Assembly: GCA_022925895.1 (NCBI GenBank)
Contig: JAKSYS010000534.1
Location: 1-43,423, forward strand
Direction: 5' to 3'
Origin: Fragilaria crotonensis
Taxonomy: Eukaryota > Bacillariophyta > Fragilariophyceae > Fragilariales > Fragilariaceae
DNA: 43,423 nucleotides
Under the pieces are notes generated by a model. The model did no database searches. It worked only from the letters and a program-made list of their open reading frames with translations, and was not told where the DNA came from. The position numbers and the translations under genes are program-made. Numbering within the stretch: position 1 is the first letter of the stretch; every line of letters starts with the position of its first letter. Shown one piece after another: positions 152 through 42,003 of this stretch.

Positions 152-480
152 TCCACTTTTGTTTCTGTTTTGTTGAAAAGTCGTCCCTTATGGTCAACAG
201 AAACTCCGACATTTATTTATTTAGTTCTGTGGAGCCCAAAAAAATAACCCATTTCCGACAGAAAAGGTTTTTCGATCTGTCGGGATTTCACGACAACAAA
301 ACAGTAACAGAAAGGTTTCTGATGCCTGATTCCCTGATTACAATCAAGCCGCAACCATTCATCGGAAAATTGCCTCTGTCAATATCTTTTACAATTGTGT
401 GTTCTTTTTGTGAAGAAAGAACTTCGTGTTGTTCTGCTCGAGAAGATCTTTTTTATCGGAGACTCAAAAAAAAATGCATC

Positions 481-2166
481 ATGGCTTCTCCTTTCACCAC
501 CTATAGCTTTGCTGACATGTTGTTGTTGCATACTAAGCAGGGTCAAGAGGAGAGCGACAATAGCAGCAGTGATGAGGAAGGTGCCACCAAAACTAATGTT
601 GATTTTGTTGACCGATTGGTCAAGGCGATAATGACCAATTGTTCATCATTAAACACTAACAACAATTCAGTCATCCTCCCCAGGAACACACGCCGCATCA
701 CTACTAGACGCCGACGCCAAAAGCCGAAGAAGAGACGAAAGTATGGCTCTGGTGCAATGATATGGACAAACCCAGTCGATGGTATCTCGTGTCGGCTCAC
801 CCCATACATGTCGCAGTGGTACAATTACTACGTCAAGAACCCACCCCTTGATGATCATCGCTTTCTACGCAGGTTCCGCAGACGATTCAGAGTGCCCTAT
901 TCATACTTTGTTGAGCTTGCTGCTGAGCTTGAAGACACAGAAGATTTCCGAACCTGGAAGCAGGGTTCCACCAACTGCCATGGAGTACCAGCGACGCCAA
1001 TTCCGCTCCTTCTCCTTGCAGTTCTCCGTTACTTGGGGCGAGCCTGGACTCTGGATGATCTGTCCGAAAGTACTTGCACTAGTCAAGAGAGTGTGCGAAG
1101 GTTCCTTCACAAATTTCTTCACTTCGGCAGCACTACTTTGTACCAGAGATATGTCTTGAGTCCGTCTTGTGCCGATGAAGCTCAACAGCACATGGCCGAG
1201 TACTCTGATGCGGGCTTTCCAGGTGCGGTTGGTTCTACTGACGCCACCCACGTCATTCTTGAACGCATTCCAAACAAGCATAGACAATCGCATCTCGGTT
1301 TCAAGTCAACCCACACGGCAAGGGCCTATAACATCACAGTGAACCACCGTCGTCAAATATTGGCAACAACTACTGGCCACCCTGCCCGATGGAACGATAA
1401 GACCTTAGCCATCTTTGATCCATTCATGCAAGGATTGCATGAAGGTAAGATACTAGATGACCTTGAATTTGATCTCTACGAATATAATGACTCTGGTGAC
1501 ATTGTATTGCAGCGGTATCGCGGTGGGTGGTTGTTAGTTGACAACGGATATCTCGCTCGCCCAACAACTGTCCCTCCCATCAAGACAACCAACAGTCGCG
1601 CCGAGATTCGTTTCTCAGCATGGCTGGAGGCACTGAGAAAAGATGTAGAATGCACTTTCGGCATTCTAAAGGGACGTTGGCGTATTCTGAAGACCGGAAT
1701 ACGTATTCATGGCACCGACGGTCCCGACAAAGTTTTTTTTACTTGCTGTGCTTTGCACAACAAGCTGCTTCATATCGATGGATTGCATGCGCAATGGGAA
1801 GACGGTGTAAGGAGTGTTTGGGAAAATGAATACGATAACGATGATGGTGATAATGACATCGAGATGGAGGATGATGAGGATGAAGACATTCCAGATGCTA
1901 TTGTTCGCCTTCGGAATCCTGTATCAGAGCGAAACTACGGGATCGATGAACCCCACAGCAACACCAACCATCAGCAACAACAAGAAGAGCGGGCTCCAGC
2001 CATGAATACAACACCAAGAATTATACCAGCATCCGCTGACGACAACATCATTGTTGTTCGGAAACTTACTCTGGACAACTTCCGTCGTCGGTTGGTAGAG
2101 CACTTTTCCATCGCAGTCGCAAGAAACGAAGTAAAGTGGCCGCGGCGTTTCGGCAACCATAGGTAG
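481..2166 (+). CDS. Harbinger-type DDE superfamily endonuclease (transposase)
   Basis: This is the transposase of the surrounding element, about 561 residues from the ATG at 481; the frame is open further back to 190, but the upstream part is basic and low in homology-like features, so 481 is preferred. The N-terminal third is rich in Arg/Lys and includes a basic run near 700-740, plausible for DNA binding or nuclear import. A conserved block with LDDHRFLRRFRRRFRVPYSYF follows (shortened here: FRRRFRVPYSYF). The DDE_Tnp_4 fold shows all three catalytic acids: Asp in GSTDATH (1240-1242), Asp in VDNGY (1540-1542) and Glu in DVECTFGILKGRWR (1648-1650). The C terminus is acidic then basic. No frameshift interrupts it, so the protein could be active. 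It faces the second gene of the element across about 150 bases. Confidence 0.92.
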   Translation: MASPFTTYSFADMLLLHTKQGQEESDNSSSDEEGATKTNVDFVDRLVKAIMTNCSSLNTNNNSVILPRNTRRITTRRRRQKPKKRRKYGSGAMIWTNPVDGISCRLTPYMSQWYNYYVKNPPLDDHRFLRRFRRRFRVPYSYFVELAAELEDTEDFRTWKQGSTNCHGVPATPIPLLLLAVLRYLGRAWTLDDLSESTCTSQESVRRFLHKFLHFGSTTLYQRYVLSPSCADEAQQHMAEYSDAGFPGAVGSTDATHVILERIPNKHRQSHLGFKSTHTARAYNITVNHRRQILATTTGHPARWNDKTLAIFDPFMQGLHEGKILDDLEFDLYEYNDSGDIVLQRYRGGWLLVDNGYLARPTTVPPIKTTNSRAEIRFSAWLEALRKDVECTFGILKGRWRILKTGIRIHGTDGPDKVFFTCCALHNKLLHIDGLHAQWEDGVRSVWENEYDNDDGDNDIEMEDDEDEDIPDAIVRLRNPVSERNYGIDEPHSNTNHQQQQEERAPAMNTTPRIIPASADDNIIVVRKLTLDNFRRRLVEHFSIAVARNEVKWPRRFGNHR

Positions 2167-2318: not shown

Positions 2319-3926
2319 CTACAATGCAAAAGACGATTCTACTACGTCATCCTCACCATCATCACCATCATCAGGTGCTTGATATGGTGGCATAGGCGAC
2401 ACTCGTGTCTCAGTCAACTGCTGCGGTGCCTTATCAAGAACACTGGCAATGGTGGCATCAATCAACAAGTCCACATTGTCTACATTCGAAGCCTCCGCTA
2501 CCTCATCATCAATGATCTGTTCTTCTGCAAATGCAAGGTCATCAATGGCTTTCGCCAATTCTTGATTGAGCTTTCGAAGCTCAATGATGTACAATGGTCT
2601 GTTTGGGTCGTCAGCATCAACGGAACTGATAAGGAACTTCTGTTCCTGAATCATTGTTTGTTTCCCGGTCACCTTTTTAAGGTGCATTGCCACAATTCGG
2701 TCATTGAGCTTCGCCTTTGCCTTTCCCTTGTGTGCAAGCCTTGACTGGGCAATGCCAGCAGCCTGAAGGCGTTCGCCAAGAGTTGCGATTGATGAAGTTC
2801 GTTTGCGGTCTTCAGGCACTGAACCGATAGTAGTCCTAGTAAGTCTGGAGGAGTTGTCGTCACCGTCATCGTCACCGTTGTTGTCTGGTGACAGACGATG
2901 ACGCTTGCGTTGAGCTTCTTCTTGCAGTTGCCTGGCTCTCCTTCGTCCAGCGAGCTTTTTTTCAGCGGTGCTGTTGAAAGCTGGAGTCGACGTCATTAGA
3001 AGATCGGATCGATGGCATAGCATGTCGAAGTCTTCAACAATCGGACCCATCAAGGTGAAGACAATGTATCCGGGAAACGTAAACATTTTCGCGGCATCTA
3101 GTATTGCCTGTTGCGCCTCGTTTTGATCTTGATTGTCACCACTACTTACGCCAGCATTTGTAGAACCCAGCATCGCCGTATCGGCTGGAGCAGCATTGTC
3201 AGCATTATGAGTACTACTAGTAGTATTTCTACTACTAGTATTTGCAGAAACGTCATCACATTGCTTTGAAGGATTCAAAACAAAGTACATTTTCTCTCGA
3301 ACAAATTGTAGATAATTGTCGTGGTTCATGCCCGAAGGAAGATTTCCCATTGTGATGTAGTCCCTGTAAGGACTGTCGGGTGCCATCACACAAGACAGTG
3401 CTTTCTTGCCGTTCTTGACAACCTCTTGTGCTCTCGTGTACAGAGTTCGGGGCTTTATATAATCATCGGGGTTTGAAGCAGTAGTATTCAGTTTACTTTG
3501 AAGGAGTAGCGGAAGTGAAATGCCATTGATGCCACCGATTGGAATCGTGATGTGTCCCCCAAGGCAGTGGAGGGATGGTTTCATTACCAAAGAGCTCCTG
3601 GTGGTAGTCGTATTTAATAGTGGTGGGGGGTAAGTAGTATGATAATCATTACGAACAGGAGTCAAATAATCAGAGGATGTTCCACTCCGATAGTAAAGAC
3701 CTCCGAAGATCCCAATTCCTCCAACCAGCTGTTCTGCAAGTCCGATTGAATCTCTGTCTCTCGCATTGCCGTACTACTGTTCTGCAATACTTGCCTCCAT
3801 CATGGTCTTTGTAACCGAATTGCCACTATGATGACACTCTTGATAAGCAACAAAGGCTGCAAAGCCTTGCAGCTCTTTGTGCACAAAGGCACCGCCAATG
3901 AATGGTTGCTGTTTGCTTGAACTCAT
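2319..3926 (-). CDS. Second protein of the Harbinger element, interrupted by an in-frame TAG
   Basis: The long open part is 2319-3665. The same frame continues upstream to an ATG at 3926 (MSSSKQQPFIGG), broken only by a TAG at 3774-3776. If the TAG is real, the first downstream ATG is at 3584, giving about 421 residues. Harbinger elements normally encode a Myb/SANT DNA-binding partner that helps the transposase enter the nucleus; I see no convincing Myb Trp pattern here. What is visible is an N-terminal Gly/hydrophobic stretch, a Ser/Thr/Asn-rich linker, a basic RRRARQLQEEAQRKRHR segment that may be a nuclear localisation signal, a charged helical or coiled-coil part with LRKLNQELAKAIDDLAFAEE, and an acidic tail. 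A DNA-binding or adaptor role is inference from position only. The stop could be a mutation or a base-call error. Confidence 0.6.
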
Positions 3927-11282: not shown

Positions 11283-12638
11283 CTAAATGGCATCTTCAAC
11301 GTTGTCTCTTGCACAAACGGCAGGATCTGTCTGAAGATCAACAAGACTGTCAGACGCTAGAAAGACAGGTTCGTTACATCCCAAAACTTGCGGCTCTTGG
11401 CGAGGTGTCGTTCTCGCTTCAGCTGGTGGATTCTTGTAAGTCAAGCACTGCATCAGTGCCCACAACCTTGATCTCGAAGGATTTAGTCGACGCCGTCGCA
11501 GATATCTGGGGCGAAGATAAATGAGAACATTCAGGAATCCCTGCAAAGGGAACGTGATGGCGACCAAGACAGCGAGCCAAAAAATGTCAGATTGTTGCTC
11601 GCGCTGGACAGGAGCTCGCTGCCGAACCCCCATGACAATGAGCCCCATCAAACTTATGAGACACGCCAATACGTATAGAGTCGCTTGTATTGCCACGGCT
11701 CTTGCTTGTTGATGTTCCCGACTTGAGCTCCGCAGAGCAGCAGCATCAGATGCATTCGATTTCTTGTGACAAGGCTGTAGCATCTTGAGGAATTCCCAGG
11801 AACGTTGAGCGAAACCGATTGAGCTCCCAATTTCAGAGTCACTTTGTTGCTCGCCACGACTCCCGGCGATGCTGAAGCTGCTGATGCTGCTGCTGTTGGT
11901 GACACGAGTGCCGTGCTCTTCGTGAGCCGAATTGCTTGCAATACCTACAGCAACATTTGTTGTTGAGGAGAACTTTGTATGACGATATTGTTCTGATTTT
12001 CGTCTCGTTGAGCAAACCTTCCAATAGATCATGCCGTTTGAAACGAGAAGAAATATAATTGACGCCCCAAGAGGAATGCCCCCGAAGATGAAAACGAAAA
12101 TTGGATCCAAACATGGTACCGAGGGATCCTCGCCGCATCCCTTTGGATAGTCTCCAATCCAGCAAATCAGTCCCAATCCTTTCGCAGAATAGAGGGAAAG
12201 GCCAGCTCCAATAGATGCCGTTACGAGAGGAAAGAGGATGGACATGACATGCAGAGACGGTTCCAGATACTTTCGGAATTTCAGCTCGCTGACTCCATAA
12301 ACGACAGTGGCAAGAAAGAAGGCGTTCAATGATATATTGTAGAGTGGGACAGAAGTGCCGAGTTGAGTGAAGAAGCCCATCATGGTGCAAGTTTGATCGT
12401 TCCCATGTGCCGATATTTGTCCCCCTTCAGCCGGCAACAGGAACGGATGAACAAACAAGCAAATTGCATTGAGGATGTCAAACATGGACATGCCAAGCAT
12501 CAATCGATTGTAGACTGACGACTTTTTCGTCATCAACACCAAGTAAACGATTATGCTGGATCCAGCAATGGATAACGAAGATGAGATGCAGGTCAATACG
12601 ACCAAAGCGATCACTTGTCCATCCGTCAAGGGCGCCAT
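11283..12638 (-). CDS. Seven-transmembrane receptor (GPCR-like), copy A
   Basis: The protein has 451 residues from the ATG at 12638 (MAPLTDGQVIALVV). Hydrophobic segments fall near residues 9-36, 46-68, 88-115, 128-151, 180-206, then after a long Ser-rich internal loop (about 207-318) two more near 320-342 and 355-378: seven in all, with a short outside N terminus and a cytoplasmic tail. Cys in the DQTCTMM segment at the start of helix 3 and several Cys in the second outer loop (LICWIGDYPKGC) could form the usual disulfide. The long third inner loop and the helix 2 motif YNRLMLGMSMFDILNA resemble the cAMP-receptor-like/class E group known from slime moulds and stramenopiles; the assignment is tentative. 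The ligand and G protein are unknown. The gene is unbroken and has a diverged copy at 17498-18989. Confidence 0.7.
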   Translation of the reverse strand: MAPLTDGQVIALVVLTCISSSLSIAGSSIIVYLVLMTKKSSVYNRLMLGMSMFDILNAICLFVHPFLLPAEGGQISAHGNDQTCTMMGFFTQLGTSVPLYNISLNAFFLATVVYGVSELKFRKYLEPSLHVMSILFPLVTASIGAGLSLYSAKGLGLICWIGDYPKGCGEDPSVPCLDPIFVFIFGGIPLGASIIFLLVSNGMIYWKVCSTRRKSEQYRHTKFSSTTNVAVGIASNSAHEEHGTRVTNSSSISSFSIAGSRGEQQSDSEIGSSIGFAQRSWEFLKMLQPCHKKSNASDAAALRSSSREHQQARAVAIQATLYVLACLISLMGLIVMGVRQRAPVQREQQSDIFWLAVLVAITFPLQGFLNVLIYLRPRYLRRRRLNPSRSRLWALMQCLTYKNPPAEARTTPRQEPQVLGCNEPVFLASDSLVDLQTDPAVCARDNVEDAI

Positions 12639-17497: not shown

Positions 17498-18989
17498 TCA
17501 TGCAACATAACAACAAGGGTTGCCATGACGACCGCGCGACCTAGAATCCTCAAATGCAGTAGGCACTGTAGATATTAACCATAAATCATTTTCAGTCCCC
17601 TCATCCCTCCGCGCCTCCAAAGGACGTCGAATTTGTGTGCTGTTCGTTCCCGCTTTGCGCGACTTCCCCAAGATCCCCCCCACAGGGCTCATGACATCTT
17701 CACTATTGTCTCCTGCACAAACGGCAGGGTCTGTCTGAAGGTCAGCAAGACTGTCAGAAGCTAGATTCCCAGGCTCATTACATCCCGGAATTTGCGACTC
17801 TATTCGAAGTGCCATTCTCGCTTCAATGGGCGGAATTTGATTTGTCAAACACTGCCATACTGCACACAGCCTCGATCTTGTAGGAAAGACTCGTCGCCAT
17901 CGCAGATATCTGGGGCGAATATATATTAGAAGGTTCAGGAATCCCTGCAAAGGGACTGTGATGCAGACCAAGACTATGAGCCAATAAATGTCAGATTCGT
18001 GTTCACGTTGGACCCGAGCGCTATCCTGAAGCGCCATGGCCACGATCCCCACCACACTTGTAAGACACGCCGATACGTAAAGAGACGCTTGAATTGCAAC
18101 GGCTCTTTCTTGTTGATATTCTCTACTTGCGCTCCGCAGAGCAGCTCGAGTTGCACAGGATTTCTTTTGAAAAGTCAAGATCGTCCTTAGGAATTCCCAG
18201 GGACGTCGAGCGATAGCCGTTGAGTTCCCACTTTCGCTGCTGCTGTTGGTGAAACTTGTGAACGGCTCTTCGTCTGCCGCATCGTTCACAACAGCTACAA
18301 CAACATTTGTTGTTGCGGACAACTTGGCCTCACGGTATTGTTCTGATTTTCGTCCCGTGGAGCGAACCTTCCAATAGATCATGCCATTTGAAACCAGAAG
18401 AAATATAATTGACGCTCCAAGAGGAATGCCCCCCAAAGATCAAAACGAAAATTGGATCCAAGCATGGTACCGAGGGATCCTCGCCACATCCCTTTGGATA
18501 GTCTCCAATCCAGCAAATCAGTCCCAATTCTTTCTCGGAGTAGAGAGAAAGACCAAGTCCAACAGATGCCGTTACAAGAGGAAAAAGAATGGACATGGCA
18601 TGCAGTGACGGTTCCAGATACTTTTGGAATTTCAGCTCGCTGACTCCATAAACGACGGTGGAAAGAAAGAAGGCGTTCAACGAAATATTGTAGAGAGGGA
18701 CAGTCGGGCAGAGTTGAGTGAAGAAGCCCATCATCGTGCAAGTCTGATCGTTCCCATGTGCTGATATTCGTCCCCCTTCCACCGGCAACAGAAACGGATG
18801 AACAAACATGAAAATCGCATTGAGGATGTCAAACATGGACATGCCAAGCATCATTCGATTGTAGACAGACGACTTTTTCGTCATCAACACCAAGTAAACG
18901 ATTATGCTTGACCCAGCAATGGATAACGAAGATGATATGCAGTTCACCACGACCAAAGCGATCACTTGTCCATCCGTCATGGGCGCCAT
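17498..18989 (-). pseudogene. Seven-transmembrane receptor (GPCR-like), copy B, one frame break
   Basis: This is the paralogue of 11283-12638, starting at the ATG at 18989 (MAPMTDGQVIALVVVNC). Helices 1-4 and the outer-loop Cys pattern are the same. At the sixth C of a run (18429-18434; copy A has five) the frame is lost between VLIFGG and IPLGASIIFLLVSNG, so the downstream helices 5-7 are in another frame. If that extra C is an error, the protein is about 497 residues. The third inner loop is shorter and reshaped relative to copy A (NSSSESGNSTAIARRPWEFL), while the flanking helices are conserved. The C terminus extends about 60 residues beyond the stop position of copy A (after DNSEDVMSPVGG). 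Such tail and loop differences could change coupling; that is inference. Confidence 0.65.
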
Positions 18990-19363: not shown

Positions 19364-19469
19364 CTCAATAGCGACCAGAGGTCGCTTTTGCAAGAGTGCG
19401 CGAAGCGTAACGGTCGCGAACACCTTTAAGTAAAAAAAGGTTGTATGTAACTAGACTTGCGAATGGTGT

Positions 19470-19571
19470 TGCACCCAGATGAGTTGACTACCTGAGAATT
19501 TACATGGTGCATCCTTGATCGGTAAGGATCCCCCACTTAAATTTTGAGGTAGTCAACTTGTCTGGGTGCAA
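19470..19571. mobile_element. Tiny nested inverted-repeat element (MITE-like)
   Basis: TTGCACCCAGATGAGTTGAC at 19470 is repeated inverted at 19548-19571 (reverse complement TTGCACCCAGACAAGTTGAC), with the match running on through TACCT. The unit is only 102 bases and lies about 100 bases inside the left end of the 5 kb element, so it is either a nested MITE or a subterminal hairpin of that element. Confidence 0.65.
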
Positions 19572-19839
19572 AAGTAGGTTTTAGGCTTCAAGTGGGTAGG
19601 TCATAATATTCCGACGAAAATGTCCGGCTCAAAACCTGATAGAGACGTGCAATGAACGTAGAGGTCATTTCAGAATTCTCACGGTTGCAGAGCAAAAAGA
19701 TTTTGTCGTTACCCTCCATCCATGGGACGAGATTACTTCTGAAGTGTGTGATTGTGATCATCTCCCCCACTCGTACCCTCATCCCCAAAAGCCGCTTCTG
19801 GTACCGTTACAATATCTTCAGCAGGCATCGCAAAAAGGG

Positions 19840-22595
19840 ATGGTTCAAACACGATCTGGAAATGTTGTTATTCACACGGAAGCTTCGTATGGACGAGCAG
19901 CGAGGAGCGAATCGTCAAGGAAGCGCCGGAAAAGAAAGGCAGAAAATGATCAGAATGCAGCAAATGCGACAACACCAAGGAGACGGCACCTACAAGATCA
20001 CAAATTCAATATGATGAGGCATTAGCAACTCCTCCCGGTGCATCTGCTAGGGTTGGAAGCACCCCATCGCCCAACAAGACTGATCGAATTCTACGAGGTA
20101 CTACAAGAAAACCACGATGCTCCGACTTTGGAAAGACACGTCACTTTGCATTTCATGGTCAAGGATTCATGTTCTGCAATGCCTGTGATTTGTGGGATGC
20201 TCTCCCACCTGATGCAACCAATAAAGTGTCAATTGATTCGCTCAAGTTTGGTTGCACTGCCAATCATACCTACTTCTCGCATCCGACTACACTCCGGAAA
20301 CAAGACTGTTATATACGACGAAAGAGGAAAGTGGTGATCCCCATACTCAACGTGCAACGCAGGGTTGTACCAAACTATGGTGTTGCCTTCAACGAAGAAT
20401 CGGATTCTTCTTTCGCATCAAGTTTTGATGGTGAGGTTGTTGTAGTTGATCAAGGTAATGGCGGCAGCAGTGCACACCACAATAACAACAATTCTCGCAC
20501 GACGACAACAAGTTCAACCGATGACCCAAGTGACAACGACGACAATCAACCAATCCTTGGAAGCTCAACTACAAATGCGATGCCGATGGATGTGATAGCT
20601 ACTACCACAGCAGGTGTCGGCTCTTCTATCACTGATGTTGAGAGCAGTCTGCTGAATGTACAACAGCATGCACTAGTGGTCGAACAACTTAAAGGTAAGA
20701 TTGCGTTGCTGCAAGAAAGGAATGATCGGCTAGTCAGAGAAGTCAAAGCCCTACAATGCAAAGTAATGAAACATAACGCAACGACAACCGATGAGGGTGC
20801 TACTGTTGGTGCACTTTCCACCAGCAGTCGGAACGAGAGCTTCACGCAACAAGTTCTTGCAGCCTTGAATGGTGTCCTGCAAAAGCATCGACGCTGGAGT
20901 GCAAATCGAGTCGGTGCTTTAGTTGCAAAAGCTGTTTGGAATCATGACACGTATCTTCCACATCTGCTTCGGCATGCTCGCAAACATTTGCGAGAAAAGG
21001 TCTTCACTACTTACAATATCCTACGAGAAATGGATCTCGCTGGAGGCACGCTCTCCTACGAAGGAATCGAAGTGTTGAGACGTGTGGAGACATGCGGTGT
21101 GAAGAGATTCCGAGGCTCAATGATACCATCAAAGTCTGAGCTTAAACGAATGGCTGGAGTTGTCGAATGGATGAAGCAACTATTCCTCCCGAGATGGCAG
21201 GATTTCTACCTTTCTCGTGCATGACCAACTGTGACCTGTCAGCACAGTGGAAGGGTTTGTGCAAAGGTGGTGCGGCAAAGATTCATACACTTCCTTGCAC
21301 TGGGTGTGCAACGGAGTCAGATGAGTTAGCCACTCCAAACCCAGAACTTTGCACAAGATGGTGCATCGAGCATTCCATTGACCCAGATTGGCTTTGTTAT
21401 CACAAGCCTATGGCGACGCCCGAGAGAGTTGTTGCAATGCAGGCTGAAGTTGAGGAACTTGTATCGACACTAGAGAGGGCTCTCATTGAGATTCTTGCCG
21501 AGTCAAAAGTTACTCGCCACGATATTGAACTCGACACTCCACCAGAAAGTTCGGTCAACGACAATGCCTCCATCCACTTTTGCCCCAACAGCGCAAGTCA
21601 GAGGCACTCATTTTCTCGTTTACTAACAAATGAACTGATTCTGCGAGGGCTCGACATCAACGGAAGCTTGGAAATCAGGCGAGAAGGATTAAGAGTTGCT
21701 CTCAAAGGTGAAGCAACGATAGTTAGGCTTTCGAAAGAGATTGCTCATGGGGAGGTTAAGGAAGGAGCCTACTTTCTACTGATGCAGACTCTCCCGTGTG
21801 TGCTTCACATGGAGAATCGAAATGGCATAAAGATTCTCTCGATGCTGCTTGTTGAAGGAATGTCAAATGCAAAAAGCGGCTTATATACAATGATGTCAAG
21901 GCTGAGGGTACGAGTAACTCGTTTCGTTACAGACATGGAAGATATAATCAATCGATCAATATTAGGAACAGACGAAGACCCGTGTCAATGGATGTGCCCA
22001 TTTGATTTCCAGAAAAGGAGCTTGGTCCCATAACCATGGACAATGTTCGAACTCGACGTATCATCGATGCACTTGATCTGATTGTGGATCTTTGTGTGAT
22101 AGATGACGCTCGCAAAGCGCGATGGATGACAGGACTTAACCATTACAGGATTGCTATGGTACTACTAAGAAAGAAGGAGGATTTTACGAATGACATGATT
22201 GCATCGTATCAGAGTCATGCCGACAAATTCTACCAGGCATGGCTTCAGCTTTGGCAAAAGGAGGGTGTAACAAATTATCTTCATATGATGGGGTCCGGTC
22301 ACATCGCTGACTATCTCTACAAGTGGAAGAATCTCTATCGCTTCTCGCAGCAAGGCTGGGAGGCGATGAACTCACTCATCAAGACATTCTTCTTTCGACG
22401 AACTAGTCATGGTGGCGGCGTTCGGGAGCTGGCAACAAGAAGTCTCGGCTTATTCCAATAGCACGATGGTTACAAAGGCGGATGATATTTCTTTGTCGCA
22501 TCGACGAAAGTGTGATCCATCAATACACAGCAGATCATCCTATGCCCGAGGGTTTCTGCACACAAGCATCATCACAAGATGATGTATACGACTAA
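19840..22595 (+). pseudogene. Probable transposase gene of the 5 kb element, broken by several frameshifts
   Basis: Pieces in three frames join into one gene. A basic N-terminal part (SSRKRRKRKAEND) lies at 19840-19985. After a shift come GKTRHFAFHGQGFMFCNAC with a Cys/His zinc-finger-like pattern (about 20130-20190), an Asn/Ser/Thr-rich linker and a coiled coil to 21190. After a second shift follow a segment to about 22005, a third shift before ELGPITMDNVRTRRI, and a fourth near 22435, after which RLIPIARWLQRRM continues to a TAA at 22593-22595. The motifs GSGHIADYLYKW, QQGWEAMNSLIKTFFFRRT and RLIPIARWLQRR look like those of an uncharacterised protein family I have seen in diatom and cnidarian genomes, from memory. 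Its Glu in QGWEAMN could be catalytic. The superfamily is not named here. Confidence 0.6.
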
Positions 22596-22623
22596 CGAGA
22601 AGCACTATACTTCTACCTGAATT

Positions 22624-24045
22624 TTATCTTAGCCTGAATTCAATCAACACCTTTGCAAGTTGTATGTCGAATTGTTTTTCTCGACCAAATAATGCGTTGT
22701 TGTGTTGCGGATAACAACACTTAGCGCAAACGTAAGTAGCATGTATGCTTACCACTCGGTAGAGACATCCGTCGTGATCCTCAAACTCACTCCCGTTCAT
22801 GATAATTCCTTGGTGATGATCCTCCTGCACCACATCCTCGGGATCACAGGGATATGGATTGCAACGATGAATCAATGAAGACAACAGTGGATCACATTCC
22901 TCAGTCGCAACAAGACCTCTTCTTGAAGAATACGTGAATCGCCTGTATCGAATGGTTATGAACAATTCATTACATCCGTCAAATTCCAGATCGATGCCAT
23001 CGCGAACAGTCTTGGAATTAAAGCCAGGTTCGTGGTCATCAGAACCACAGACCACGTTGATGATGTCATTCTGCCACAGGCTTTTAGGTGCTGATATTTT
23101 GGGCAGTCGACATCGCTGCCCTGCAGTTGTTGATTCTCCAAAAACATAACAGAGATGCTGAAGATGAGCCTTTGTCTCGAATCTTAGAATGGTGCAGCGC
23201 TTACTAACTTGAGCAGCTTTAACAACCAACCCACTTTCGATAACTCTATGCCGTCGGGTTCGAGATGAAACTCCACAGCCAGCAGCATCAAAAATGTTGT
23301 CGAACTGTAATCGAAGAAACCCCCATGCCTCGGCGGTGAAATTTGACAAGCGACAGACTTCTTTTCCATAAAGTCCTTGTTGGTGTGAATATCGTCCTAG
23401 TAACCTCGTCATCTCCAGCTTCACACAGATCACGCTATTCCACATCCTACTGGGAAAACAATCATGGTATCGTGAGTTTTGGTAGCTTGATGGAAAAGGA
23501 AGGCAGCAGTTGTCCGGCAGCTTGATTAGAATCGGTTGATCATTTCCGAGGTGGGACCGATACCTTACTACAAACGCGAATGTCATTCCCTGACAAGTGT
23601 AGAAAAGATTGCTGGTATCCTGCAGCGATGCCATGGTAAACACGAATGCCAGGTTCATTATCTCATCACTTGAAATTGTTCGAATCTCTTGTGTCTGCAC
23701 AATTTCGGCTAGATGCCGTAGATGATTTTCATCCAGCAATCTTGGATGCAAAAAGCCTTCTGTCGCTGAAAAGTCATTCAATCGCTTGAATATATTCACT
23801 TGGACTGAAGTTCTGCTTGATGGCAGGCTGGTTTCTGCACCAACAATTCTCGCCACTGTCATACAAGCATCCTGACTTCTGGTTTCAATGCTCGTGTTTC
23901 GTGGTGCCAGTAGCACAAATGTACCTGGCAGAAGATCCGCCTTGAGTGTTCGGCTGTAACATGCCATTGGAACTTCGTTTTGCTCGCAATGGGGCTCAAC
24001 CCTGTCCCAAGAAAAGGAGCCGGCTGGAACTGCTGCGGTGATCAT
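22624..24045 (-). CDS. Accessory protein of the 5 kb element, BAH-like N-terminal region
   Basis: An uninterrupted 473-residue frame starts at the ATG at 24045. I do not recognise a named family. Residues about 38-95 (LPGTFVLLAP, then CMTVARIVGAE and VQVNIFKRLND) have the spacing of a bromo-adjacent-homology or similar chromatin-reader beta fold; this is pattern recognition, not a search result. The middle contains SSDEIMNLAFVFTMASLQD and CQGMTFAFVVRYRS. The C-terminal end holds YVCAKCCYPQHN, a possible metal site. It is convergent with the decayed putative transposase and lies wholly inside the terminal repeats, so it belongs to the element. Being intact while its neighbour is broken, it may have been kept longer or have decayed less by chance. 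Confidence 0.6.
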   Translation of the reverse strand: MITAAVPAGSFSWDRVEPHCEQNEVPMACYSRTLKADLLPGTFVLLAPRNTSIETRSQDACMTVARIVGAETSLPSSRTSVQVNIFKRLNDFSATEGFLHPRLLDENHLRHLAEIVQTQEIRTISSDEIMNLAFVFTMASLQDTSNLFYTCQGMTFAFVVRYRSHLGNDQPILIKLPDNCCLPFPSSYQNSRYHDCFPSRMWNSVICVKLEMTRLLGRYSHQQGLYGKEVCRLSNFTAEAWGFLRLQFDNIFDAAGCGVSSRTRRHRVIESGLVVKAAQVSKRCTILRFETKAHLQHLCYVFGESTTAGQRCRLPKISAPKSLWQNDIINVVCGSDDHEPGFNSKTVRDGIDLEFDGCNELFITIRYRRFTYSSRRGLVATEECDPLLSSLIHRCNPYPCDPEDVVQEDHHQGIIMNGSEFEDHDGCLYRVVSIHATYVCAKCCYPQHNNALFGREKQFDIQLAKVLIEFRLR

Positions 24046-24352
24046 GATGGTGAGTAGCTGACACCTTCGACGTTCTCCTTGTTGGAGGTGAACTCGAGAA
24101 GGGTGCGATGGTCTCTATTATGTAACAGACCAGCACTTCATAAGAAAAGACGTTATCCATCTGAAAGAATTTACTTACGCAAAAACTGTTTACATGACGT
24201 TACAAATAATTCAGATTAAATAGTAAACCAGTAAGAAGTAAGTAAACACGACATCGATAATTATACAGATGCATAAATCAACATAGAGTGCCTAACCTGA
24301 AATGGTCGAGACATCCGGAAAAGTCATGAGGGCCCTTGGTCGCTATTGAGTA

Positions 24353-37542: not shown

Positions 37543-39530
37543 ATGAGAATACCAATCCATCTCATCATGGCAACAACAATGGTGACAAGTCCAATTCCTG
37601 CTCGTGACATTACAAACAATATGGAGTCGGGACTGGCGGACCAAGCGTGGGTTGCAACACCACCGAAACCGGACCAAGCGAAACTAACCATCGTGCAGAT
37701 CACAGATGTCTACACATTGGAAAACTTTGCATCCTTAAAGACAATGCTCCAACAAACCAGAAACGAGTCCGGAGACAGCAAGGTCGTATCTGTCTTGACA
37801 GGTGACTTCCTAGCACCATATTTGCTCTCTAGTGTCGATCAAGGATACGGCATGATGAAAGCCCTCGCCCAAACACCCATCGACTACTTGATGTGGGGCA
37901 ATCACGAGGCAGACATTGATCACAAGATCGTTTGTAAGCATGTCAAGAACTTTCCAGGTACATTCATCAATACCAATATGCAAGATCATGATGCGATGAA
38001 GCATCAGGTACCGTTTGAAATCATTGAAGTGCCATCTCCGGACGGTTCTCACTGTCGCAGGGTGGGTCTGATTGCTGTCTTGTCGGATGACCCGGCCTTG
38101 TATCGTCAGTTTGATGCGCCGGGCGCGTTTGGAGGGGCCACGATTCGAAATCCATGGGAAGTGCTGAAAGAGTACAAGGAAATGCTTGAAGGTGCACCTA
38201 CAATTGTGATTTGGTCATTCCGCTGGAGCATTTGTATGTTCCCGATGACCACAGGACCTGTTCCGACTTCGACTTTCCGATCGTCTTGTCCGGTCATGAT
38301 CATCACCGAATCGACGAGACAGTGGACGGGACACGTTTGATCAAGCCTGGATGTGATGCTGAGTATGCTGCTGTCGTGGAGGTATGTTGGGACGGACAAG
38401 AATCAAGCAAGCCAACAATTACCTCTCGCTTCGTCAAGCCCAGTGATTGGGAACCATGCCCCGTGATGCAAGAATCAACAACGCGCGCCTACGATGCTCT
38501 GTTGCCGCTCCGAATGACAGAACTCGCACGCATTCCAAAAGACTTTGAACCACTCTCGTCGTCCAATTCGCGAGGCAGCGTCACGACGATGGGTACGTTT
38601 ATTTGCAGTCTATTGCGTTCTTCGTTGAACGTTAAGCGTGGACGGCATCGGTCAGACTTTGTGGATGCTGTGATTCTCATGGGTGGCAATATTCGGGGAA
38701 ATACAGATTACCCTGAAGGAAGCTACTTCTCGCTTGAAGCTCTCGAGGCAGAAATCGAGTCTGGTGAAGAAATAGGTGTGGTGGACATGCCAGGGTGGGT
38801 GCTTGCCAAGGGCATCCAAGAGACCCACGCAGGTGATCCTGTTCCTGGTTGGCTACAATACGACGGAGACATCAAGGAGTTATATCCGAGTGGTGAGGAT
38901 GGGCCTTCCATTATTGCTGAGGTTGCTGGACTGCCGTTTGATCCTACCCGAATGTATCGTGTTGCCACAAAGATTGGTGATTTGACAAATGGTCAGTCAA
39001 AGACATTCACGGAATACTACACAAAAAATCCCAAACTTCTGCCTGCTGAAGGGAGCTTCGTTAATATTTCGGTTGAGCTAATGGGATACTTCGCTCGCAA
39101 TTTGTGGAGAAAGATATGGGAGTCACTCGAGCCAACAATGCTCATTGAACCCCAACTTGATTCGGATTACAGCTATTACCGTGAGCGATTTGCAGATCTA
39201 GACTACGATCAAGATGGATTGATTAGTGTCGACGATATTCATGCAGCGTTTCGACACGTCCTTGGACTCAACGTCCACTGCGATGAAATGACACTTGCCG
39301 AATCTGTCCACGCCTATGCAGACGTGAACAGTGACGGTAGGGTTACTGTTGAAGATTTGGAGTTGTTCAGCATCGAGCTTCCTGCTTTGTACGAGAAGGA
39401 TCGATGGCGTCTTGCGTACGCGAAGAATGACAAACATCGCCTGACAAATCCTGCTGGTGCCTCATCACCCCGTTCCGTGGCATTCGCCCGCGAACCTGTT
39501 GCCTTTCACTTCAAGTTTCCATCCCTGTGA
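37543..39530 (+). CDS. Calcineurin-like phosphoesterase with EF-hands, copy 1, one frame break
   Basis: The gene is about 662 codons when one lost base is allowed for at 38197-38201: copy 2 reads CCTTACAATTGTGAT where this copy has CCTACAATTGTGAT. The architecture is 5'-nucleotidase-like: metal-binding segments IVQITDVY, LTGDFLAPYLLS, MWGNHEADI and VLSGHDHHRIDE, then a 5'-nucleotidase C-terminal-type substrate domain (GNIRGNTDYPEG), then two EF-hands (DYDQDGLISVDD and DVNSDGRVTVED) that should bind calcium. The first motif has Tyr where the family has His (D-x-H). The N terminus is mildly hydrophobic (PIHLIMATTMVTSPIPA), not a clear signal peptide. It is the tandem paralogue of 40021-42003, with similar sequence beginning just before the start codon. 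Confidence 0.8.
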
Positions 39531-40020: not shown

Positions 40021-42003
40021 ATGAAAATACCAATCCATCTCATCATGGCGACAACAATGGTGACAAATCCTATTCCTGCTCGTGACATTACAAACAACAT
40101 AGAGTCGGGACTGGCGGACCAAGCGTGGGTTGCAACACCACCAAAACCGGACCAAGCCAAGCTAACCATCGTACAGATCACAGATGTCTACACATTGGAA
40201 AACTTTGCATCCCTAAAGACGATGCTCCAACAAACCAGGAACAAATCAGGAGACAGCAAGGTCGTTTCTGTCTTGACAGGCGACTTCCTAGCACCATATT
40301 TGCTCTCCAGTGTCGATCAAGGATACGGCATGATGAAAGCACTCGCCCAAACTCCCATCGACTACTTGATGTGGGGCAATCACGAGGCAGACATTGATCA
40401 CAAGATCGTTTGTAAGCATGTCAAGAACTTTCCAGGTACATTCATCAATACCAATATGCAAGATCATGATGCGATGAAGCACCAGGTACCGTTTGAAATC
40501 ATTGAAGTGCCATCTCCAGATGGTTCTCACTGTCGCAGGGTGGGTCTGATTGCTGTCTTGTCGGATGACCCTGCCTTGTATCGTCAGTTTGATGCGCCGG
40601 GCGCGTTTGGAGGGGCCACGATTCGAAATCCATGGGAAGTGCTGAAGGAATATAAGGAAATGCTCGAAGGTGCTCCTTACAATTGTGATTTGGTCATTCC
40701 GCTGGAGCATGTATATGTTCCCGAGGACCATATTACGTGCTCCGACTTCGACTTCCCAATCGTCTTGTCCGGTCATGATCATCATAGAGTCGATGAGACC
40801 GTGGACGGTACACGTTTGATCAAGCCTGGATGTGATGCTGAGTATGCTGCTGTCGTGGAGGTATGTTGGGATGGACAAGAATCAAGCAAACCAACAGTGA
40901 CGTCTCGCTTCGTCAAGGCAACCGATTGGGAACCATGTCCGATTCTATTAGAGGTCAACATACGTGCCTATGATCCCTTGGTGTCACTCCGAATGACAGA
41001 ACTCGCTCGTGTTCCAAAAGTCTTTGAGCCACTTTCCTCCCACAATTCCCGCAGTGGCGTCACCAGCATGGGAACATTTATTTGCAGTCTCCTGCGGTCT
41101 TCGATGAATGCCAAGCGCGGGCGCCGCCGTTCTGACTTTGTGGATTCGGTGATTCTCATGGGTGGCAACCTTCGGGGAAATACAGACTACCCTGAAGGAA
41201 GCTACTTCTCACTTGAAGCTCTCGAGGCAGAAATCGAGTCTGGTGAAGAAATAGGTGTGGTGGACATGCCAGGGTGGGTGCTTGCCAAGGGCATCCAAGA
41301 GACCCACGCAGGTGATCCTGTTCCTGGTTGGCTTCAATACGACGGAGATATCAAGGAGGAATATCCGCAAGGTGAGGATGGGCCTTCCATTATTTCCGAG
41401 GTTGCTGGAAATCCCTTCGATCCAACCCGAACGTACCGTATTGCCACTAAGATCGGTGATTTGACGAATGGCCAGTCGACGGCTTTCACGGAATACTACA
41501 CAGCCAATCCGAAACTCTTACCTGCTGAAGGGAGTTTCATCAACATATCAGTTGAGCTAATGGGATACTTCGCTCGCAATCTGTGGAGGAAAATTTGGGA
41601 GTCGCTGGAGCCATCAATGCTAGTCGAACCCGGACTTGATTCCGATTACACCTATTTCCGTGAAAGGTTCGCAGACCTCGATAATAATCAAGATGGATTT
41701 ATTAGTGTCGATGATATTCATGCCGCGCTTCGCGACGTTCTTGGGCTCAACGTCCACTGCGATGAAATGACGCTTGCCGAATCTGTCCACGCCTATGCAG
41801 ACGTCAACAACGACGGCGACGTTACTGTGGATGATTTGGAGTTGTTCAGCAAGGAGCTTCCTGGTATATACGAGAGAGATCGATGGCGTCTTGCATACGC
41901 AAAAAATGATGCCCATCGTCTGATTCATCTTGCTTCTGTTGCTGCGTCGCCTCGCACCGTGGCATTGAATGGCGAATCTGTGGCAGTCACTCAACTTCCA
42001 TAA
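40021..42003 (+). CDS. Calcineurin-like phosphoesterase with EF-hands, copy 2 (intact)
   Basis: The protein has 660 residues with no break. Metallophosphatase motifs are at residues 51-57 (VQITDVY), 86-92 (TGDFLAP), 119-122 (GNHE), His230 (PLEHVYVP) and 250-255 (SGHDHH). A 5'-nucleotidase C-terminal-type domain spans about 310-540 with GGNLRGNTDYPEG. EF-hand loops at about 554-565 (DNNQDGFISVDD) and 595-605 (DVNNDGDVTVDD) have the canonical acidic positions, so calcium may tune activity. The D-x-H motif reads D-V-Y, as in copy 1. The family acts on nucleotides, UDP-sugars or other phosphoesters; the substrate here is unknown. Identity with copy 1 is highest in the middle and lower in the linkers, as expected of a recent tandem duplication under constraint. 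Confidence 0.88.
   Translation: MKIPIHLIMATTMVTNPIPARDITNNIESGLADQAWVATPPKPDQAKLTIVQITDVYTLENFASLKTMLQQTRNKSGDSKVVSVLTGDFLAPYLLSSVDQGYGMMKALAQTPIDYLMWGNHEADIDHKIVCKHVKNFPGTFINTNMQDHDAMKHQVPFEIIEVPSPDGSHCRRVGLIAVLSDDPALYRQFDAPGAFGGATIRNPWEVLKEYKEMLEGAPYNCDLVIPLEHVYVPEDHITCSDFDFPIVLSGHDHHRVDETVDGTRLIKPGCDAEYAAVVEVCWDGQESSKPTVTSRFVKATDWEPCPILLEVNIRAYDPLVSLRMTELARVPKVFEPLSSHNSRSGVTSMGTFICSLLRSSMNAKRGRRRSDFVDSVILMGGNLRGNTDYPEGSYFSLEALEAEIESGEEIGVVDMPGWVLAKGIQETHAGDPVPGWLQYDGDIKEEYPQGEDGPSIISEVAGNPFDPTRTYRIATKIGDLTNGQSTAFTEYYTANPKLLPAEGSFINISVELMGYFARNLWRKIWESLEPSMLVEPGLDSDYTYFRERFADLDNNQDGFISVDDIHAALRDVLGLNVHCDEMTLAESVHAYADVNNDGDVTVDDLELFSKELPGIYERDRWRLAYAKNDAHRLIHLASVAASPRTVALNGESVAVTQLP

Follow-up and report, generated by a model that had tools for sequence, protein, structure and literature searches.

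The CACTA-Mirage-Chapaev-Transib/RAG1 (CMCT) clade of DNA transposons is marked by C(2)C and H(3-4)H motifs in the transposase and by ends that are mostly 5'-CA..TG-3', and its target site duplications (TSDs) measure 2-5 bp (PMC12730594; articles given by PMC number are cited from excerpts of their text). ProtoRAG and RAG transposons hold two tail-to-tail genes between terminal inverted repeats (TIRs) and duplicate 5 bp of target; the ends of ProtoRAG read CACTATG (PMC8289069) and its partner gene is RAG2-like. The RAG1L-RAG2L pair of the sea urchin is head-to-head (PMC4411706), and gene orientation is therefore weak evidence. Very short duplications are described for other elements: Spy makes none (PMC4482050), PHIS elements (Harbinger, ISL2EU, Spy) leave 'no TSDs or 1 bp to 4 bp' (PMC10045372), and Harbinger relatives leave '0 bp, 2 bp, or 3 bp' (PMC12730594). 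The subject of the present work is a two-gene element of the diatom Fragilaria crotonensis, located at 19366..24348 of a 43,423-nt stretch of DNA (contig JAKSYS010000534.1; hereafter the window), whose family duplicates a single base.

The genome searched comprised 62.1 Mb in 881 contigs, the window lying within contig 486. The silicon-transporter family had 19 matches in this genome, 18 of them above the cut-off (best E 4e-193), as fits a diatom host. In what follows, L numbers denote fetched loci and C numbers genome contigs. The element was found to represent a real mobile TIR family, and it matched no named family, as a sequence-only reading of the window had proposed. It resembles the CMCT elements in its short TIRs and, in one of its two clades, in its CACTA ends (CACTAGA), and it resembles the ProtoRAG/RAG transposons in its two tail-to-tail genes between TIRs and in a RAG1-like H-H-E register. 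It differs from the former in that no Pfam similarity was found for its core and its partner gene is a different one, and from the latter in a TSD of 1 bp, not 5 bp, and a partner without detectable RAG2 similarity. With a probability of about 0.72, we read it as a two-gene, cut-and-paste type DNA transposon with a DDE transposase laid out like those of CACTA, Transib and RAG1, and with a cofactor partner.

Element ends and the one-base target duplication

Although a CA-pattern was used to look for the ends, empty sites for 10 insertions set the boundaries independently of it. The window copy (19366..24348, no strand assigned) is 4983 bp long and has T as its left and A as its right flank, without the usual 1-bp duplication. 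Its left TIR, CAATAGCGACCA (19366..19377, plus strand), has its boundary set by the empty sites of other copies, and its right TIR (TGGTCGCTATTG on the plus strand; 24337..24348, minus strand) was placed by the two arms and the ends of other copies; the inverted ends are perfect over 12 bp, 5'-CAATAGCGACCA..TGGTCGCTATTG-3'. The sequence-only reading had set a transposon with matching ends about 5 kb apart at 19364-24350. The two inverted ends were borne out by the window arms and by other copies, whereas the limits had to be moved inward, the outer bases being flanking DNA. The 16-bp repeat of that reading consists of the 12-bp TIR and 4 flanking bases per side; these outer bases ('TACT/AGTA') are complementary by chance in the window copy and are not common to other copies. 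The exact 13-mer CTCAATAGCGACC was found at only 6 places in the genome, since it starts with two bases of flanking DNA, while the degenerate 12-mer CAMTAGMGACCA occurred at 176 places, as against 26 for the reversed control pattern. From the first part of these 176 places, 14 further end pairs were fetched, 13 of them short and one of 2.9 kb.

Two clades were distinguished, clade 1 with L003, L010, L011 and L012 and clade 2 with L015, L016, L017 and L018. The ends of clade 1 read CAATAGCGACC and those of clade 2 CACTAGAGACC or CACTACAGACC. The termini, CAATAGCGACC or CACTA(G/C)AGACC, are thus of the 5'-CA..TG-3' type of the CMCT clade. The inverted repeats of full-length clade 2 copies extend over 37-40 bp, and the perfect part of the TIR is 12-37 bp among full-length copies overall.

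Further copies were found in the genome. Two exact ends were present in 29 copies, that of the window included, which comprised 14 full-length, two 2.9-kb and 13 short (105-1413 bp) elements. In 27 of the 29, the flanks had exactly one base in common, and none had more; with a chance of one in four per copy, at least 27 matches would arise with a binomial P of about 1e-14. The duplicated base was A in 8, T in 7, C in 7 and G in 5 copies. Not counted among the 29 were L001, L002, L006, L007, L009 and L011, which have no exact end pair within the locus (no right end was found in L009 and L011), and the single ends L035-L040; among the excluded copies, those on C29 (ends 10.2 kb apart) and C94 (8 kb) both matched by 1 bp. 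The copy at G000:C29 54201-64413, which retains the common 1-bp duplication at this unusual length, suggests that about 5 kb was later inserted inside the element.

Empty sites were searched for with the two flanks joined and the duplicated base counted once; 40 of 327 candidates were scored and 12 matches were fetched. These represent 10 insertions from both clades, and the base was present once at the junction in all 12 alignments. Eleven of the 12 were gap-free within 10 nt of the junction, several differing further off, and the empty site L041 for the L003 insertion was identical over 139 aligned columns. In L047 (G000:C361 97570-97790), the empty-site relative of the L017 insertion, a 4-nt gap lies 3 nt from the insertion point; it could be chance or an excision footprint, and this empty site is less certain.

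Since 27 of 29 flanks match and the empty sites carry the base once, one base is duplicated at the target, by elements of either clade and by short derivatives alike. We give almost no credence to an artefact of misplaced ends or of assembly: although two of the 29 copies fail and near-identical copies differ by small indels that may be sequencing errors, the matches involve all four bases, full-length, 2.9-kb and short copies and both clades, and the empty sites read through with the base present once. The TA target of the sequence-only reading was ruled out by the same flanks and empty sites. No target consensus or palindrome was seen among the 27 sites, the central base being evenly spread and palindromy not exceeding that of shuffled pairings.

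Among described superfamilies, Tc1/mariner was rejected, as its TA duplication was not observed and no such family was among the Pfam results. KDZ elements (Kyakuja, Dileera, Zisupton) were likewise set aside, there being no KDZ family among the Pfam results and a TSD of 1 bp as against 8 bp for Zisupton. The family resembles Spy and the PHIS elements in its very short duplication, but the DDE_Tnp_4-type transposase of PHIS elements found no match in the eight transposases of the element. Given the range reported for PHIS elements (PMC10045372), the 1-bp duplication is not claimed to be without precedent. Literature searches by phrase, which did not extend to Repbase and most subscription journals, gave no DNA transposon family with a 1-bp duplication among the matches listed, an unrelated LINE-1 preprint and an unrelated phage paper having turned up, and searches on diatom, BAH and CACTA/RAG elements gave nothing recognisable as this element among theirs; Repbase or subscription journals may already contain the family.

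The convergent gene pair and its derivatives

Two convergent genes, the second of them intact, had been proposed between the ends, and both points held. The transposase gene of the window copy (19840..22595, plus strand) is defective and matches the uninterrupted 1047-codon frame L003:1265-4405; its start, stop and motif coordinates were worked out from open reading frames (ORFs) and alignments. The window copy differs from L003 by 2 substitutions and 7 length changes, namely 382 bp absent at 21170, five deletions of 1-2 nt, and 2 nt that L003 lacks instead. The 382-bp gap takes out the segment holding the first catalytic Asp, and small gaps in the gene lie near 19985, 21871, 21912, 22013 and 22424. 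With many indels of 1-2 nt and few substitutions, the differences within 19985-22424 may partly be sequencing or long-read assembly error rather than decay. The partner (accessory) gene (22624..24045, minus strand) is an intact ORF of 473 amino acid residues, for which 100% identity was reported in C29 and C274.

When the genome was searched with a 141-residue C-terminal piece of the transposase, 46 matching stretches were obtained and merged by hand into 37 loci; the partner protein gave 82 stretches, merged likewise into 44 loci. The partner was convergent with and adjoining the transposase in 36 of the 37 loci (the exception being on C15), and 8 of the 44 partner loci had no C-terminal transposase match. 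Twenty loci were fetched first for frame analysis, and eight of them contained uninterrupted transposase frames (1035-1162 codons stop to stop, 1029-1149 residues from the chosen starts); four of these eight (L010, L011, L012 and L015) also had a partner frame, 497-546 codons long from stop to stop. Both clades carry the same tail-to-tail pair of a transposase of 1029-1149 residues and a partner of about 500. Transposases of clade 1 were 64-65% identical to that of L003, and those of clade 2 were 30-31% identical to it; among nine aligned partners (the eight other than that of the window having frames of 490-546 codons stop to stop), identity was 55-65% inside clade 1 and 26-27% when clade 2 was compared. 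A clade 2 query revealed no clear third clade in the genome, the weak loci on C475 and C560 being left out. Near-identical copies, together with unoccupied sites, suggest recent activity.

Both genes are apparently under purifying selection: synonymous sites are near saturation between subfamilies, yet the proteins have been conserved. The ratio of nonsynonymous to synonymous substitution rates (dN/dS) was 0.085 and 0.181 for the transposase (2 of 28 pairs with estimable dS) and 0.12-0.18 for the partner (6 of 36 pairs), values that are rough, resting on dS of 0.84-2.75. Between clades, the corresponding ratio of proportions of differences (pN/pS) was 0.62-0.77, which is little informative with synonymous change saturated. 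Where comparable, pN of the two genes followed the same rank order: it was smallest for L010-L012 (transposase 0.181, partner 0.239), intermediate for the three L003 pairs (0.223-0.233 and 0.257-0.277, the L003 partner being represented by the near-identical one of the window copy) and largest for L010-L011 and L011-L012 (0.272-0.278 and 0.337-0.347). The transposase and its partner therefore seem to travel together as a pair.

The partner had been taken for a BAH-like, chromatin-reader-type protein, a proposal that found no support: no BAH domain (PF01426) was detected in nine partner proteins at E<=1 in Pfam, and the BAH model, run on the genome, gave three sub-threshold matches (C293, C309), none of them in element copies. 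A very remote BAH-like fold may nevertheless be present. RAG2 homology found no support either, 17 of 80 shuffles scoring as well, and kelch and PHD families were absent from the Pfam scan of the nine proteins; a sequence search of the PDB gave no match for the partner. Because it adjoins the transposase gene in 36 of 37 loci, occurs in both clades and is apparently under purifying selection, the partner is, on these comparisons, best described as a conserved component of the element.

Short derivatives have subterminal DNA in common with full-length copies (for example, 119 nt at 83% between L021 and L014; 366 nt at 77% between L033 and L015), and the blastn matches of L023 and L025 to full-length copies sit in the zone corresponding to a subterminal hairpin-like inverted repeat of the window copy (19469..19571, no strand assigned; two 48-nt arms, 83% complementary). 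Two 2.9-kb elements, L019 (G000:C76, 498-3398) and L034 (G000:C38, 171-3067), are 99.86% identical and lack the catalytic core. Both still have the ends, together with parts of the transposase gene that encode stretches of its N-terminus and its extreme C-terminus; the partner gene is also present, with a frame that is intact in L019 and interrupted in L034. Since they lie at separate sites, each with its own 1-bp duplication, a derivative with the partner and without the transposase core appears to have moved; it could act as a regulator or as a partner donor.

That the partner is a passenger or an anti-silencing factor unrelated to catalysis, as the TET/JBP genes of fungal transposons may be, is a serious rival, which we hold possible while leaning towards a cofactor. 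Transposons do carry such genes (PMC12730594), a catalytic role is only what we infer for this protein, and derivatives of 105-1413 bp without the partner have moved, possibly in trans. On the other side, the same partner is found in both clades, adjoining in 36 of the 37 loci and diverging in step with the transposase.

Transposase motifs and the CACTA/Transib/RAG1 clade

Alignment of eight transposases revealed eight residues of interest that were invariant in all of them (D496, D593, C614, C617, H784, H944, H950 and E970), giving the pattern D..D-x20-CxxC..H..H-x5-H-x19-E. Positions 21233..21307 (plus strand) encode the second catalytic Asp, within TNCDLSAQW, together with the C(2)C motif, PCTGC, both of them unchanged in 8/8. 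The H..H..E block (NYLHMMGSGH...SQQGWE) is encoded at 22273..22362 (plus strand), with the proposed third catalytic residue (E) at 22360-22362. As in the CMCT clade, the C(2)C motif (C614-x2-C617) falls between the second D and the E; here it lies 20 residues after D593. An N-terminal cysteine/histidine-rich, DNA-binding-like region was seen in seven of the eight proteins, and a coiled-coil-like stretch is also present.

The comparison of these D, C, H and E motifs with RAG1, the enzyme that rearranges antibody genes, was written down before the profile test. Residues 600, 708, 727, 730, 795, 937, 942 and 962 of mouse RAG1 are D, D, C, C, H, H, H and E, and we take them to have catalytic and zinc roles. 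These residue numbers were not found in the excerpts of PMC9885083. The numbers of residues between the motifs in the element and in RAG1 are 96 vs 107 (D-D), 20 vs 18 (D-C), 166 vs 64 (from C to H784/H795), 5 vs 4 (H-H) and 19 vs 19 (H-E), with CxxC in both. When a profile of the core was aligned with mouse RAG1 by hhalign, the best segment paired TNYLHMMGSGH...QGWEAMN with TNYFHKTLAHV...EGNESGN, so that H, H and E were in register with His937, His942 and Glu962 of RAG1, with one gap between the two H's. With RAG1 618-1006 as the target, no shuffle out of 150 reached the same score, and the H-H-E sub-profile alone was better than all 60 shuffles. The sub-profile from the first D to CxxC gave a colinear segment between the two Asp, which was not significant (7 of 60 shuffles as good). 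As a control, the core gave P 0.14 against a Harbinger-type ORF of the window and P 0.03 against RAG1. A pairwise sequence search with RAG1 found 6pqn, which we take to be the Transib structure, only at E 0.0034, and weak scores are therefore expected even for accepted relatives.

Database searches placed neither protein in a known superfamily. In Pfam and NCBIfam both proteins matched only below the curated cut-offs, and in PHROGs only sub-threshold matches were obtained; the PDB sequence search gave coiled-coil or other chance-level matches for the transposase. The Pfam method works for a known superfamily, since the same scan recognised the Harbinger-type ORF at 190-2166 (3.4e-18). No relatives were confirmed in viral contigs or prokaryote genome contigs. 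The classical CACTA profile PF02992 had no match in the host and none in the control genomes either, and is thus uninformative. The first gene had been described as unplaceable in any named superfamily; this stands in so far as no Pfam cut-off was reached, and falls short in that the layout of the catalytic motifs resembles that of the CACTA/Transib/RAG1 clade.

Several results weigh against the reading of a two-gene transposon with a RAG1-like DDE transposase. The TSD is 1 bp where the CMCT clade has 2-5 bp; two of the 29 copies, the window copy (T left, A right) and L022, lack the matching base, as does L002, in which the terminal base is changed. The spacing H944-x5-H950 (8/8) is one residue wider than H(3-4)H, and as many further residues are invariant across the eight proteins, the choice of motifs was partly guided by RAG1. 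The hhalign probability to RAG1 was 1.7%, and 5 of 300 shuffles scored as well against RAG1 556-1006. Sub-profiles around the first D, the second D and H784 did not find their RAG1 counterparts, being equalled or surpassed by 49, 14 and 23 of 60 shuffles, respectively. Nothing was obtained when the alignment to RAG1 was forced to be global. No Pfam transposase family was found for the eight cores at E<=10, HMMER filters dropping most matches above about 0.1. AlphaFold, run on the partner without an alignment, gave a pLDDT of 30.5, which is unusable.

From the absence of significant Pfam or PDB sequence matches, and from the TSD and H spacing that differ from those of the clade, it could be argued that the transposase represents a separate DDE superfamily, unrelated to CACTA/Transib/RAG1, in which convergence or chance produced the C(2)C and H..H motifs and the CA..TG ends. 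We consider this unlikely, as D, D, CxxC, H, H and E follow one another in an order and at distances parallel to those in RAG1, with 19 residues from H to E in both, and the best local alignment falls exactly on the RAG1 H-H-E register. A recombinase of non-DDE chemistry, whose insertion leaves one duplicated base, is very improbable: the duplication does lie outside the 2-5 bp of the clade and an RNase H fold is here a presumption, but the element has true inverted repeats at both ends and a duplication of the staggered-cut type, its acidic residues are invariant in RAG1-like order, and neither a tyrosine nor a serine recombinase family was among the Pfam results.

Judged from its motifs and the local alignment, the transposase is probably a remote relative of the enzymes of the CACTA/Transib/RAG1 clade and probably resembles them in the way it works. 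It is not filed as a member of that clade, because the 2-5 bp duplication was looked for and 1 bp was found. In the reaction that we propose, a DDE-type transposase, presumably with an RNase H fold, would bind the inverted ends (5'-CA..TG-3', perfect over 12-37 bp among full-length copies) and excise the element, which would then be joined to target DNA with a one-base stagger; gap repair would duplicate the one base. The partner, transcribed tail-to-tail, would most likely assist this reaction as a cofactor.

Neighbouring genes and significance of the family

The window contains a second, different DNA transposon-like pair, formed by the Harbinger-type ORF mentioned above (190-2166, plus strand; an intact transposase of 658 residues matching DDE_Tnp_4) and a convergent ORF of 421 residues (2319-3584, minus strand) with no Pfam match. 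Two related seven-transmembrane receptor-like genes lie at 11283-12638 and 17498-18989 (both minus strand); the first matches Git3 (3e-6), and the second seems to be divided between two overlapping frames. At 37543-39530 and 40021-42003 (both plus strand) there are tandem near-duplicates, the first broken into two frames and the second matching metallophosphoesterase, 5'-nucleotidase C-terminal and EF-hand families.

A bolder proposal, which we regard as doubtful, is that the family forms a new diatom lineage of the RAG1/Transib/CACTA type, an obligate two-protein machine in which a RAG1-like catalytic subunit works with an unrelated partner that fills the place of RAG2, and joining takes place at one-base spacing. 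If this were true, the two-subunit, tail-to-tail design of RAG would have arisen more than once, and one base would be the shortest non-zero spacing of joined target strands that is possible.

The length of a target duplication reflects the distance between the two joining sites of the transpososome. A family that duplicates one base, whatever the sequence around the sites observed to date, probes how short this distance can be. If the core truly belongs with CACTA/Transib/RAG1, the clade would reach into diatoms and would gain both a new target spacing and a new conserved partner gene, and the family would offer an independent system for asking why a RAG1-type enzyme needs a second subunit. 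As recent activity is suggested, its function could be tested.

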